From positions 62,001-126,000 of the forward strand of contig NZ_JAHZTC010000015.1 of assembly GCF_019599265.1 (NCBI RefSeq): a stretch of DNA of 64,000 bases, read 5' to 3'. The notes under the pieces are model-generated. The model saw only the letters and a list, made by a program, of their open reading frames with translations, was not told where the DNA came from and ran no database searches. The translations under genes were made by a program, and so were the position numbers. Positions 46,122 to 51,028 of this stretch are shown here, piece by piece. Origin of the DNA: Pontibacter sp. HSC-14F20. Its GTDB lineage: Bacteria > Bacteroidota > Bacteroidia > Cytophagales > Hymenobacteraceae. Every line of letters starts with the position of its first letter. Positions within the stretch are counted from its first letter, which is position 1.

Positions 46122-46472
46122 CTAGTGCGCGCCAGCTTCTTTGCGGCAGCAATCGTCCAGCTTGTTGTAGGCACGCGGCGTAGCGGGCTTGTCGTCTGCA
46201 TCGTAGCCGGTGTCGTTCACCGCCTTGCGGATCTTGTCTTCGTTGGTTTTTTTAGGATCAAAGGACACTGTCAGCATTTTTGAATCCACATCCAGGTTCG
46301 ATTTTTTAACGCCTTTCTCGTAAGCCATCGCTTTTTCCAGGCTCTTTTTGCACATGTCGCACACGGCTGACGTCTTGATTTGGATTGTTTTCTCGTTGCC
46401 ACTCTGAGCCTGTGCGCCGAGCGCTGCCAAGAGCATCACAAATACTAAGCTGAGGTTTCTGAAGATTTTCAT
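46122..46472 (-). CDS. Periplasmic heavy-metal-associated (HMA) domain protein
   Basis: A 116-residue protein with signal peptide (SLVFVMLLAALGAQAQ). The HMA fold has the metal-binding pair Cys38-x-x-Cys41 in SAVCDMCKKSLEKAM, and an extra CC pair near the C-terminus (LDDCCRKE). It should bind Cu(I) or a similar soft metal in the periplasm. It follows the TonB receptor gene on the same strand, so it probably takes metal delivered by that receptor. Confidence 0.88.
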   Translation of the reverse strand: MKIFRNLSLVFVMLLAALGAQAQSGNEKTIQIKTSAVCDMCKKSLEKAMAYEKGVKKSNLDVDSKMLTVSFDPKKTNEDKIRKAVNDTGYDADDKPATPRAYNKLDDCCRKEAGAH

Positions 46473-46557
46473 AAGGAGATTTATTATTGGTGAATGTTAA
46501 TGTATGATAATGATTTTTCTATGTAAAAGCTGATGGAGCTGTGCAAATGATGTGCCG

Positions 46558-48780
46558 CTACTCAATCTTGAAACGTATACCTGCATAAATTACTCTGCCA
46601 GTGATCGGTCCCCATACCATGCTGGTATCGAATTCAGGGCCGAAGGGATTATCAGCTCCCCTGATGGCATCTGGCTGTCTATAGTTCAGCAGGTTTTCGC
46701 CGCCCACATAAATTTCCCAGCGCTTGAAAGCCCGCGACACCTGCCCGTTCAAGGTATAGAAAGCGTCCGACTTCCGGACGTCTACTTTCCCTCCGTGGCC
46801 TTCCATGTAAGCCAATGGCATTTGCCCGAAAAACTGCGTAGTCAGGTCAGCGCGCCACTTGTCGAAAGGAGTGGCAAAGCCGAGGTTCACAAAAAAGCGG
46901 TGTTGTGGAATCATGGGACGTTGCTGCAAAACACCGTTATAGGCAGTCTGCACATCGAAATATTTATAAGCCGTCTTCACGTCAAAACCTTTCAGCACCT
47001 CGTACTGAAGTTCTGCCTGGAAGCTGCGTGAGAAGGAGCGACCTTGTAGGTTATAAAATTCCACCTGGTTGGCACTGCTATACATGTCGGCCACCACCTG
47101 GTTCTGGAACGTGGTGTAGTAATAGTCGGTGATGAAAGCGCCTGGACGACCGCCCAACTCAAAGTACTGTGTAAAGGATCCGCCCACATTCCAGGCTTTC
47201 TCCGGCTCCAGCGCCTCCCGGAACGTAAAAGCACGGTTACTAACCAAGGCCGCTGTGTTCTCCGAAATCGGATTAGCTATCCGGAAGCCTTTGCCTGTCG
47301 CCACCCGAAAAATGGTGTTAGGGGTGAGGTCATACTTCACATTCAGGCGCGGGGTGAACACAGTGCCGTAAAGGTTGTGAAAATCAGTTCTTGCGCCGGC
47401 CACAATGGTCAGGTTCTCGGCATTGTTGAAAATGTATTCTGCGAAAATACCCGGCACGCGTTCCGTTCTTGCCAACCTGGTTTGCTCCAGTCGCTCTGTA
47501 TAGTCATCGTATAGAAAGCTGGCACCCACTTTATAGGTATGGCCCGTGTGCCCGATGATGGACTGGAAGATGAAGCGCAGGTCGCCCGTGTTCTGCTCCC
47601 CGTTGTACTGCCTGCGGCCATAAAGGGAGTTGAACTTATGGTGCACGCCCGAAGTGATGAGGCCCAGGCTCTGGTATGGCCTTCCGGGGAAGATATAGGA
47701 GGTCTTGTTAAAGAAAGACAAACGGCCGGTCTCGGATTCGGTGCCATAATGCTGCGTCGGGCTCACGGCTTCACCTTTCACATAATTCATCTGTCCGCCC
47801 AGTTTTGTTTCGCGCAAGGCATTAAAACCAAACTCTGACACCCAGGTATCGCCGTGGGTATATTTCCACTTGTTGTACACGTTGTGGTGCGTACCCAGTG
47901 CCAGGTCCATGAACCCGTCCTTGTTGCGGTCCACGCGGTTGCCCAGGTGGTCGCTGTGCAGCATCAGAAGCGTGCTCCACTTCGGGTTCACCTGCGCCGA
48001 CACGTTCAGGTTGGCATCAAACTTGGCCAGGCTGTTACCATACAGGTTCAGGTAGAGGCGTTCGGTTTTCTCCGGGTCCCGCAGCTTCACGTTCACCTGT
48101 CCCGAAATTGACTCATACCCATTCAGTACCGAACCCATCCCTTTAATAATGTCGATGGATTCGATATAAGTGCCTGACAGATAATTGAGACGGTAGGGAG
48201 TAGACAGGCCGCGCAGGGCGGGTACGTTGTCGGTGGTGAGCAAGGTATAGGAACCGTCCAGCCCCAGCATCTGGATTTGTTTGGCGCCAGAAACTGCGTC
48301 GGTTGTCGTTACTTCCACAGAGGCATTTGTTTCAAAACTTTCGGCCAGGTTACAGCAGGCCGATTTCTCCAGGTCGCGGGTTGTGATGATCTGTGAGTTG
48401 GTGGGAGTGAGGGCTGAGTAGCGCGTTTGCTGTCCCTCCACCACGACTTCTTTTAGAGAGCCGGTGGATGTGAGCGCGACAGTAATATTGGTTTTGCCGC
48501 TGACGTTTATAGTGTCCGGCTTATACCCTAGGTATGAGACTATGATCTCGGGTGTAGCAGCATCCGCCAGTTGCAGCGTGAAGTTACCAGCAGCGTCGGT
48601 AGAAGTGCCTTTGGTGGTGCCTTTCCAGACCGAGCTGGCCCCGATAAGCGGGGAATTGTTGGTTTTGTCTACCACTCTGCCTGTTAGTTGCTGGGCAGTG
48701 GCAGGGTATAGGATACTTATAAATAATGCGAACGTTCCGAAAGCACGGTATAGGTATCGCAAAGCGTTATTGAAAATCAT
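46558..48780 (-). CDS. TonB-dependent receptor, probably for a metal
   Basis: A 740-residue outer-membrane receptor. Residues 30-110 are a carboxypeptidase-regulatory-like domain (TGRVVDKTNNSPLIGASSVW), then a plug with KSACCNLAESFETNASVEVT and MLGLDGSYTLLTTDNVPALR, and a 22-strand barrel ending with IYAGIRFKIE. The CC pair in the plug and the neighbouring HMA and Cys-rich proteins suggest copper or another soft metal as cargo. The signal peptide is at the N-terminus (FGTFALFISILYPATAQ). Confidence 0.9.
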   Translation of the reverse strand: MIFNNALRYLYRAFGTFALFISILYPATAQQLTGRVVDKTNNSPLIGASSVWKGTTKGTSTDAAGNFTLQLADAATPEIIVSYLGYKPDTINVSGKTNITVALTSTGSLKEVVVEGQQTRYSALTPTNSQIITTRDLEKSACCNLAESFETNASVEVTTTDAVSGAKQIQMLGLDGSYTLLTTDNVPALRGLSTPYRLNYLSGTYIESIDIIKGMGSVLNGYESISGQVNVKLRDPEKTERLYLNLYGNSLAKFDANLNVSAQVNPKWSTLLMLHSDHLGNRVDRNKDGFMDLALGTHHNVYNKWKYTHGDTWVSEFGFNALRETKLGGQMNYVKGEAVSPTQHYGTESETGRLSFFNKTSYIFPGRPYQSLGLITSGVHHKFNSLYGRRQYNGEQNTGDLRFIFQSIIGHTGHTYKVGASFLYDDYTERLEQTRLARTERVPGIFAEYIFNNAENLTIVAGARTDFHNLYGTVFTPRLNVKYDLTPNTIFRVATGKGFRIANPISENTAALVSNRAFTFREALEPEKAWNVGGSFTQYFELGGRPGAFITDYYYTTFQNQVVADMYSSANQVEFYNLQGRSFSRSFQAELQYEVLKGFDVKTAYKYFDVQTAYNGVLQQRPMIPQHRFFVNLGFATPFDKWRADLTTQFFGQMPLAYMEGHGGKVDVRKSDAFYTLNGQVSRAFKRWEIYVGGENLLNYRQPDAIRGADNPFGPEFDTSMVWGPITGRVIYAGIRFKIE

Positions 48781-48845
48781 CTTTCTTATTCGTTTAAATC
48801 TTGAGCATGCAGGTATAGCACCAACGCCGTAGGTTGCAGCAAAGA

Positions 48846-49265
48846 CTAAACGATAAGCATATGCAGCCGATGGAGCAGCTGAATGCCATAGAGAGGGGGA
48901 GAACTGTCGGAATAGGTGAGAATGCGCTGGTCGGTGGCAACAGTCGGGGACCAGGTGTTAAAAAGTGGTGTGAATGCTAAAGCAAAAAATACCGGAACCT
49001 CAAGCGAGAGTGTTTTGATCGAAGAGACCGGTTCCAGTTTTTCGAAAGACAATTCTGTCGTGCAGCAGTCGTCTTCGTCGGTTTGCTGTTCATCATGCTC
49101 CTGCGAATCCGGTTTTTCACAGCAGCCATCCATTGCCTCCTGGGAGGCTGGCGTTCGCAGGCCAGTCATCAGGCACAGTTGCTCACTCAGGGCCACGCCA
49201 AAAGAGCCCAGCAAAATGCTCAGCGTCAGCAGCAATGTAACCGTATGGCGGATGGTCTCATTCAC
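48846..49265 (-). CDS. HYC_CC_PP-family small secreted protein
   Basis: A 139-residue protein with GTG start and N-terminal helix (TVTLLLTLSILLGSFGVA). It has the Cys-pair pattern of this family: EQLCLMTG, DGCCEKPDS and DDCCTTE, then the late SPPLYG motif. Such proteins accompany TonB receptors and HMA proteins in Bacteroidota and probably bind metal in the periplasm. It is first in the minus-strand set, 65 bases before the receptor gene, and divergent from mraZ. Confidence 0.78.
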   Translation of the reverse strand: MNETIRHTVTLLLTLSILLGSFGVALSEQLCLMTGLRTPASQEAMDGCCEKPDSQEHDEQQTDEDDCCTTELSFEKLEPVSSIKTLSLEVPVFFALAFTPLFNTWSPTVATDQRILTYSDSSPPLYGIQLLHRLHMLIV

Positions 49266-49269
49266 AGCA

Positions 49270-49364
49270 CAAATATACGGATATTCCTCCCACTTTTACC
49301 ACAAACTTTATCCACTCGCGGGATGGTGCCCCACTTTGTCCCACATTCTCCACTTTGTCCCACT
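49270..49364 (-). promoter_or_regulatory. GTGG repeats and -7 element upstream of the HYC_CC_PP gene
   Basis: On the minus strand TATATTTG (forward 49270-49277) fits a -7 box; transcription would begin at or very near the GTG start. GTGGGA-type words lie on this strand with 10, 10 and 9-base spacing (forward CCCAC starts near 49330, 49340, 49350 and 49359), and GTGGTAAAAGTGGGAGG (about 49287-49303) nearly repeats the word at the mraZ promoter. MraZ may act here too. Confidence 0.55.
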
Positions 49365-49492
49365 TTTGCCGAAAACAGGCTGCAGGAGACGCTTACTGTT
49401 CCGTGTTTATGGTGTAAATCACTGATGTTCAAATAATTGCAATATATTGACTCTCGTATATTAGTAAAAGGTGATATTTTCTGCAAATAAAC

Positions 49493-49564
49493 TTATCCGC
49501 AAAATGCAGGTCCAAAATGTGGATAATGTGGATAAGTGGGGTGGATAACCATAATTTATCCACA
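49493..49564. promoter_or_regulatory. Cluster of five DnaA-box-like 9-mers
   Basis: TTATCCGCA (49493-49501), TGTGGATAA (49518-49526 and 49527-49535), GGTGGATAA (49540-49548) and TTATCCACA (49556-49564) all lie within 72 bases. Three are exact matches to the TTATCCACA consensus in either orientation; two differ at one base. An AT-rich stretch (about 49430-49490) adjoins. Confidence 0.75.
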
Positions 49565-49566
49565 AA

Positions 49567-49590
49567 GTGGTAAAAAGTGGGAGATTGTGG
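49567..49590 (+). promoter_or_regulatory. mraZ: MraZ box: three GTGG direct repeats with 10-base period
   Basis: GTGGT, GTGGG and GTGGT begin at 49567, 49577 and 49587, exactly one helical turn apart and directly upstream of the -33 element. E. coli MraZ binds TGGG-type repeats with this period upstream of its own gene, so autoregulation is expected. Confidence 0.8.
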
Positions 49591-49620
49591 TTGCGAGCTT
49601 TTGTTGTTTCGTTACATTTG
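49591..49620 (+). promoter_or_regulatory. dcw promoter
   Basis: TTG (49591-49593), 19 bases, TACATTTG (49613-49620): a full match to the Bacteroidota vegetative promoter, with a predicted leader of about 30 bases to the mraZ ATG. Confidence 0.85.
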
Positions 49621-49658: not shown

Positions 49659-50126
49659 ATGAACTTCCTGTCTGGCGAATACGAATGCAAGATTGATCCG
49701 AAGGGAAGGTTGGTTTTACCTGCAAAGATAAAAACCAACTTGCCGGAGGCGTCGGGCAATCATGTCGTGCTGACAAGGGGCTTTGAACCTTGCCTCGTGC
49801 TCTACCCGAAATCGGAGTGGAAGACGATTTACGACAAGGTGGCGGGTCTGAACGAGTTTAATGAGGAGTACCGCCAGTTTCAGCGCAATTTCTTCCGTGG
49901 CAACACAGAGATTGAGCTGGACGGCACCGGCCGTTTCATCGTGCCCCGCACCATGGCCCGCTTTGCCGATCTGGAGAAAGAGGCGATTGTGGTGGGTTTG
50001 GGTAACCGTGTTGAGATCTGGAATCCGGACAGGTATGAAGATTTCCTGATCAAGGACCAGCAGAGTTTCTCGCAACTGGCCGAGAAGTTTTTAGGCGATA
50101 AACCGGCTGCAGAGCCTATGCTATAA
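49659..50126 (+). CDS. mraZ: Transcriptional regulator MraZ
   Basis: A 155-residue protein starting at MNFLSGEYECKID; an upstream open frame of 41 codons crosses the promoter and is rejected. It has two SpoVT/AbrB-like swapped-hairpin domains, with DPKGRLVLPAKI in the first and DGTGRFIVPRTMARF in the second, the DxxGRxxxP motifs of the family. It binds the repeats upstream of its own gene and sets dcw expression; overproduction is harmful in E. coli. The stop overlaps the rsmH ATG. Confidence 0.96.
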   Translation: MNFLSGEYECKIDPKGRLVLPAKIKTNLPEASGNHVVLTRGFEPCLVLYPKSEWKTIYDKVAGLNEFNEEYRQFQRNFFRGNTEIELDGTGRFIVPRTMARFADLEKEAIVVGLGNRVEIWNPDRYEDFLIKDQQSFSQLAEKFLGDKPAAEPML

Positions 50127-51028
50127 TGGAATACCACAGACCAGTCATGCTGCAGGAATGCATCGACGCGCTGGAAATTAAACCAGACGGCGTGTATGTG
50201 GATGTGACATTTGGCGGCGGCGGTCACTCAAAGGTAATCGCCAGCAAGCTGACAACCGGTCAGCTTTACTCGTTTGATCAGGACCGCGACGCGGAGGAAC
50301 AGTCGAAGAAGATCGACAGCCCGGCCTTTACGTTTGTGCGAGCCAACTTTCGGGATCTGAAAAAGTACCTGCGCCTCTACAAAGTGAAAGAAGTAGACGG
50401 CATTCTGGCTGACCTGGGGGTGTCGTCGCACCAGTTTGACGAAGCTGAGCGCGGATTCTCGACCCGCTTCGATGGTCCGCTGGACATGCGCATGGACCCG
50501 GAGTCAGGTATACCGGCAAGTGAGGTGGTAAACACCTACAGCCAGGAACAACTGCACAAGATCTTCGGGATCTACGGCGAAGTGAAAAACGCCAAAACAC
50601 TGGCCGGCGTGATTGTGTCGCAACGCGCCCGCAAGCCGATTGAAACGATTGGCGAGTTTAAACTAGCCATCAGCTCCTGCACCCCGCGCGGGAAGGAGAA
50701 TAAATACCTGGCGCAAGTGTTTCAGGCGCTTCGCATCGAAGTAAACGACGAGCTGAAGGCGCTCGAGGAAATGCTGGAGCAGGCGGCCGAAGTGCTCAAA
50801 CCCGGCGGACGACTGGTGGTGATGTCTTACCACTCACTTGAAGACCGGCTGGTGAAGAACTTCATAGGCAAGGGCAAATTCTTCGGGGAGGTGGAGAAAG
50901 ACCTGTTCGGTAACGAGAAAAAACCTCTCGACGCCGTCAGCCGCAAACCGATCACAGCTTCCGACCAGGAATTGCTAGAGAACAGCCGCTCACGCAGCGC
51001 CAAACTAAGAATCGCAGAGAAGAGATAG
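50126..51028 (+). CDS. rsmH: 16S rRNA (cytosine-1402-N4) methyltransferase
   Basis: A 300-residue SAM-dependent methyltransferase. YVDVTFGGGGHSKVIASKL is the SAM-binding loop, DGILADLGVSSHQFDEAERG follows, and VVMSYHSLEDRLVKNF is the conserved C-terminal motif. It modifies C1402 of the ribosomal P-site. It overlaps mraZ by one base and begins the enzyme part of the cluster. Confidence 0.97.
   Translation: MEYHRPVMLQECIDALEIKPDGVYVDVTFGGGGHSKVIASKLTTGQLYSFDQDRDAEEQSKKIDSPAFTFVRANFRDLKKYLRLYKVKEVDGILADLGVSSHQFDEAERGFSTRFDGPLDMRMDPESGIPASEVVNTYSQEQLHKIFGIYGEVKNAKTLAGVIVSQRARKPIETIGEFKLAISSCTPRGKENKYLAQVFQALRIEVNDELKALEEMLEQAAEVLKPGGRLVVMSYHSLEDRLVKNFIGKGKFFGEVEKDLFGNEKKPLDAVSRKPITASDQELLENSRSRSAKLRIAEKR

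Follow-up and report, generated by a model that had tools for sequence, protein, structure and literature searches.

The dcw promoter of Pontibacter and its close relatives carries a compound operator that, judged from its sequence and its strong conservation, is real, and in which a cluster of putative DnaA boxes runs directly into an array of MraZ-type repeats and a promoter. It probably represents a new variant of the DnaA-regulated division promoter, and we consider it likely that DnaA and MraZ bind there side by side, the expression of the dcw cluster being tied in this way to the state of DnaA. The window (the whole stretch of DNA analyzed, 64 kb in length) is part of a draft genome of 97 contigs. 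In it, mraZ, the first gene of the dcw cluster, lies on the plus strand at 49659-50126 (PF02381, E 1.2e-31) and is directly followed by rsmH (50126-51028; ORF list and Pfam). A 139-aa ORF without a Pfam match is divergently oriented upstream (48846-49265, minus strand).

A 9-mer scan of the region upstream of mraZ located three exact copies of TTATCCACA and two 9-mers with one mismatch within 72 bases (49493-49564), in agreement with the original prediction. Boxes b1 (49518-49526) and b2 (49527-49535), both exact and on the minus strand, abut one another and make up the direct tandem pair that had been described. Box b3 (TTATCCACC, one mismatch) lies at 49540-49548 on the minus strand, and the exact box b4, on the plus strand at 49556-49564, touches the MraZ-type repeats. 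The remaining 9-mer, b0 (TTATCCGCA, one mismatch; 49493-49501, plus strand), is weak and probably minor. The window contained four exact copies of TTATCCACA. Across 100 shuffles the mean was 0.47 and no shuffle reached four, in line with the earlier estimate of fewer than one copy by chance. When one mismatch was allowed, the whole window showed no enrichment (48 found, 56.8 expected), so the signal resides in the cluster and not in the total. Genome-wide, 43 exact copies were counted, compared with 27 for the reversed control pattern, and the mraZ site was the only one with two exact copies within 500 bp in the genome match list, as judged by eye. The AT-rich stretch reported beside the boxes was also found, with 74% AT at 49429-49498 against a window mean of 52%.

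The boxes had been said to be followed at once by three GTGG repeats with a 10-base period. These repeats occupy 49567-49590 within a proximal MraZ-type array on the plus strand (49564-49591), and the first GTGG starts two bases past b4. Being direct, of GTGG type, and upstream of mraZ with this period, they have the arrangement of an MraZ operator. A triple GTGG with a 10-base period occurred once in the window and in none of 100 shuffles; the sole other example in the genome (G000:C97:18-41; L002) is at a contig end, just before an ORF labelled IstB-like by eye. Bacteroidota promoters have the consensus TTTG / TAnnTTTG. A motif match to this consensus was found on the plus strand at 49591-49620, composed of TTG at 49591-49593, 19 nt, and TACATTTG at 49613-49620. 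The description of this promoter as perfect was too strong: it is of the Bacteroidota type and has TACATTTG, but its upstream element reads GTTG instead of TTTG.

Relatives for the locus comparison were the best 80 of 311, and an alignment of 54 rows was made with the window and 53 loci from outside Hymenobacter (L003-L055), belonging to Pontibacter, Botryobacter, Adhaeribacter, Rufibacter, and Sabulibacter. Over stretches of the block 49518-49591 the commonest base reached a mean frequency of 0.93-0.98 in the 54 rows; the corresponding values in the flanks were 0.56 (49400-49450), 0.61 (49450-49490), 0.59 (49503-49517), and, downstream, 0.67 (49592-49608). Conservation of the boxes upstream of mraZ, one of the checks proposed with the original prediction, was thus observed for the whole block. 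Box b4 was identical in 54/54 rows and b1 exact in 51/54, while b3 appeared mainly as TTATCCACC (27 rows), TAATCCACA (16), and TTATCCACT (7). Box b0 was weakly kept, mostly as TTATACCCA (19 of 54 rows), TTATCCGCA (10), and TTATCCCA (7). Box b2 was exact in 37/54 rows, and in 13 of the 17 others the sole difference was in the fifth base, the position left free in TTATNCACA.

These changes in b2 bear on a rival explanation, namely that a reader other than DnaA, either an extended MraZ assembly or some further regulator, recognizes the 9-mers, and that their likeness to DnaA boxes is incidental. Boxes b1 to b3 do contain GTGG, as the MraZ repeats do. However, their GTGG motifs follow one another at steps of 9 and 13 bases, versus the 10-base period of the MraZ repeats, and b4 has the opposite orientation; moreover, in the 13 rows mentioned the fifth-base change breaks GTGG yet keeps TTATNCACA, which indicates that what is preserved in b2 is a DnaA-type box rather than an MraZ repeat. 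We consider another reader unlikely, although it deserves some weight. With DnaA as the preferred reader, the boxes show two features expected at a DnaA-regulated promoter: TTWTNCACA boxes near the mraZ promoter exceed chance, and in the 54 rows their register relative to the promoter and to the MraZ-type repeats is conserved. Because of this register, a direct link between DnaA and the division operon is the supported one of the three options initially offered (the others being a replication-initiation-like element and a titration site), and the constant arrangement of the four boxes, the MraZ array, and the promoter suggests that dcw transcription is controlled jointly. A close pair of boxes was present in 50/50 genomes of the same genus, counting any locus (in G486 the sole match is away from mraZ).

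A second MraZ-type array, inverted with respect to the first, is a new observation at this locus. A repeat scan identified it on the minus strand at 49288-49376, about 195 bp upstream, with its GTGG repeats facing the proximal array. The motif CCAC-N6-CCAC was present within 700 bp upstream of mraZ in 37/37 loci (window included) and in 17/17 loci of the two sets, with frequencies in shuffles of 0.5 and 0.9%, respectively; it was also found in 7/27 Hymenobacter loci, at another distance. The distal array was retained in 54/54 rows, and its rightmost repeat lay 192-196 bp from b4 in 46/54 rows (185-243 across all 54), the sequence in between being poorly conserved; with no neutral indel control, this fixed spacing is only suggestive. 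A divergent promoter-like motif of the 139-aa ORF, TATATTTG, adjoins the distal array on the minus strand (motif match; 49270-49277, corresponding to L083 1112-1119). Homologues of the divergent 139-aa ORF were found in 25/36 and 12/17 relatives. In the other 16/53 no homologue was found by tblastn, and the distal array was present in all 16, so that a role as operator of the divergent gene alone was discarded. Four of these 16 relatives had no minus-strand ORF of at least 60 aa starting between -900 and -200, and the minus-strand ORFs in the other 12 may be spurious.

Box-like 9-mers at mraZ are also present in several other families of Bacteroidia. The 220 bp upstream of mraZ were compared in 190 loci with dinucleotide shuffles as control, leaving out L083, which is the window itself, and L214 and L230, which are duplicates of L094 and L111. 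A further 14 loci were inspected separately outside this set. The phylum-level loci were chosen among the matches listed, out of 371 matching genomes; f-numbers designate families, and genus g2 was taken as Hymenobacter. TTWTNCACA was found in 36/36 upstreams of Pontibacter and Botryobacter (2.67 expected) and in 17/17 of Adhaeribacter, Rufibacter, and Sabulibacter (1.17 expected). It also occurred in 11/11 of f5 (0.69 expected), 6/6 of f67 (0.41 expected), 4/8 of f4 (0.41 expected), 1/1 of f10, 1/1 of f61, 1/3 of f63, 1/4 of f8, and 3/27 of f7 (2.06 expected). Outside the class, where families were sampled one to three times each, it appeared once each in f15 (of 2), f52, and f54. No TTWTNCACA was found in the 220-bp upstreams of f2 (0/7), f58 (0/4), and f64 (0/3), nor in those of 33 Hymenobacter loci (27 named and 6 of g2), which retain a GTGG/ATGG array.

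In f7 a relaxed 9-mer, TTWTNNACA, touches the MraZ repeats in 25/27 loci (0.09 expected), mostly as TTATYAACA, and in f6 TTATHAACA lies about 12 bases before the array in 8/8. TTATYAACA in these two families may be bound by DnaA or by another protein. Their 9-mers, mostly outside TTWTNCACA, favor the reading by another protein, as does the finding of the f7 pair before an HU gene in the five places inspected. The same families (f7 with TTWTNCACA in 3/27, and f7 and f6 with mostly TTATYAACA) count against DnaA, and so do Hymenobacter, f2, and f58, which manage without TTWTNCACA at mraZ, and the abutment of b1 and b2 without a gap.

As a separate observation on these 9-mers, a TTATYAACA pair with a 20-base step was detected in 11/15 f7 genomes searched, with 4 matches of the reversed control over 16 genomes. 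The five places inspected, in which the pair precedes an HU-like gene, were L313, L318, L319, L320, and L321, and in each of these genomes the same 9-mer touches the MraZ array. In G609 (f67) the divergent neighbor of mraZ is itself an HU-like gene. The label HU-like was assigned by eye.

By the presumed residue numbering, the DnaA protein encoded in the genome of the window keeps R399, D433, H434, and H439, while positions 435 and 423 are occupied by Ser and Lys. The four kept residues speak for DnaA as the reader of the boxes, and Ser435 and Lys423 count against it. The roles of the base-contact residues of DnaA are described in the available text of PMC7561715 and PMC5742627. Of 30 loci chosen for comparing the residues, all but three gave the DnaA motif directly; of these three, L284 and L292 were read in the separate inspection and L302 was left out. 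In f7, genomes with TTATYAACA had Ala435 in 19/19 cases and those with TTATCCACA had Ser435 in 2/2; one f7 genome (G029) had Ala without a TTATYAACA-type box. Covariation between DnaA residue 435 and base 6 of the mraZ box was considered and dropped as evidence because of counter-examples in other families: f6 had Ser with TTATHAACA in 8/8, G045 (f10) had Ala with TTTTCCACA, G363 (f4) had Ser with TTTTCAACA, and in G609, whose DnaA has Ser, the HU gene is preceded by TTATCAACA.

The original prediction had also offered the cluster as a replication-initiation-like element and proposed a GC-skew plot to locate the origin. Skew was calculated from twenty stretches each of two near-complete relatives, G520 and G462, with 2 contigs each. 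In G520 the switch from minus to plus was at 4.15-4.45 Mb, with the cumulative minimum at 4,229,050, and mraZ with the same element was at about 2.52 Mb, some 1.7 Mb from the switch. In G462, where the switch was at 3.85-4.15 Mb, mraZ and the same element were at about 2.51 Mb. The skew plot thus placed the switch away from mraZ in both relatives, and the mraZ block was discarded as a replication origin. In 280 kb around the G520 minimum there was no dense cluster of TTATCCACA, so the data do not confirm that the origin in this genus uses TTATCCACA as its box, a point that also counts against DnaA as the reader at mraZ. G118, which had been sampled for the f7 motif, showed an irregular skew and gave no origin call. 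That the mraZ block is nonetheless an origin or an origin-like element has almost no probability in our estimation. It would agree with the AT-rich stretch that adjoins the box cluster (57-84% AT, mean 70%, in L003-L055, and 74% in the window) and with the skew within the window, which is weakly positive on the left, falls slightly around 42-48 kb, and turns strongly positive from mraZ onward. However, the AT-rich sequence is poorly conserved (0.56-0.61), and the skew pattern is in keeping with a long operon of co-oriented genes that begins there.

Being away from the origin, the mraZ box cluster shares this feature with a datA-like titration site. The third option, a DnaA titration or DnaA-reactivating site lying at mraZ by chance, could call on this position of the clustered boxes and on the existence of other clusters in the relatives. 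Among 17 second sites fetched (L167-L183), 14 were beside an HDAC-like gene, 2 were at nuoN/aspS-like genes, and 1 was elsewhere; G462 has a cluster between nuoN-like and aspS-like genes (L147), and G520 has one at 4.75 Mb (L132 9830-10025). These gene labels were assigned by eye. The counterpart of the 4.75-Mb cluster in the genome of the window contained no boxes, allowing up to one mismatch, and upstream of dnaA box letters were few and scattered in 25 loci and uninformative. A mere titration sink is disfavored by the fixed distance of the boxes to one promoter and by their kept position relative to the MraZ array, and the boxes at mraZ are few compared with the 43 exact copies in the genome. 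We regard a chance location of such a site as very unlikely, and titration may be a side effect of the mraZ block. In E. coli, datA is a box cluster away from the origin. The Pontibacter cluster is alike in its location and, unlike datA, is tied to a promoter; datA is named in the available text of PMC5742627.

Coming back to joint control by DnaA and MraZ, the layout allows a mechanism to be proposed. DnaA would likely occupy b1 to b4, which precede the expected transcription start by about 60-110 bases, and MraZ the three GTGG repeats between b4 and the upstream element of the promoter. Since the two kinds of sites touch and their register is kept, the proteins probably compete or cooperate, and dcw expression would respond both to DnaA, through its amount or its nucleotide state, and to self-control by MraZ. 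DnaA might act as an activator, an anti-repressor, or a co-repressor with MraZ, and would less likely cover the promoter. The position of the boxes upstream of the promoter makes activation, or relief of MraZ repression, somewhat likelier than direct blocking. With the distal inverted array, bridging between two MraZ assemblies may become possible, and the loop formed in this way would enclose the DnaA cluster.

Several known systems share parts of this arrangement, as far as the available texts of the sources describe them. In B. subtilis, DnaA is bound in vivo at the ftsL promoter (Goranov 2005, cited in PMC8203912 and PMC11019786). Both cases place DnaA or its sites at a dcw-type division-gene promoter; unlike at ftsL, the candidate boxes of Pontibacter adjoin an MraZ array directly and recur in several genera, and binding of DnaA to them is predicted. 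In Caulobacter, DnaA acts at the ftsZ promoter (PMC8203912), likewise a case of the replication initiator as transcription factor of a division gene, although in another phylum and at another gene, and no MraZ array is mentioned in the text available. E. coli has three DnaA boxes within ftsQA, reported there to be without action on ftsZ transcription (PMC8203912); these are also inside the dcw cluster but in coding sequence upstream of ftsZ. MraZ boxes at the mraZ promoter of E. coli and Mollicutes (PMC8475190) are direct repeats as in Pontibacter, where, unlike in those bacteria, DnaA-type boxes are joined to the array and a second, inverted array lies about 195 bp upstream of it. A search of the open-access literature turned up no description of a fused DnaA/MraZ operator, nor of DnaA boxes upstream of the mraZ gene of Bacteroidota.

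How bacteria coordinate division with the initiation of replication has yet to be settled, and the fusion of likely DnaA sites to the main division operator over several genera suggests a direct and testable link between both processes. Hymenobacter, which belongs to the same family and lacks the boxes, offers a natural control for a clean test. Tentatively, and with less than even confidence, the observations could be extended to a dcw switch common to much of the class Bacteroidia, in which DnaA would bind beside MraZ, with a loop between two facing MraZ arrays in the Pontibacter group and a loss in Hymenobacter. In f7 and f6 the place of DnaA might then be taken by a DnaA whose box has shifted or by some other factor linked to replication, and the f7 factor might also read the HU promoter, a part of the proposal that we hold just as tentatively. 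If this wide reading were true, the replication initiator would directly set the expression of division genes, and Hymenobacter would represent a natural loss.

Two minor observations concern mraZ and its surroundings. A MraZ match was not found in 48/88 genomes of the order, including all sampled members of f3, f59, and f66, nor in the f25 genomes among the matches listed in the phylum search; these missing matches may reflect loss or divergence past the reach of the search. Beside the dcw cluster, the minus strand at 46122-49265 encodes in a row an HMA-domain protein, a TonB-dependent receptor, and a small ORF with paired cysteines, which are perhaps a metal-related operon.
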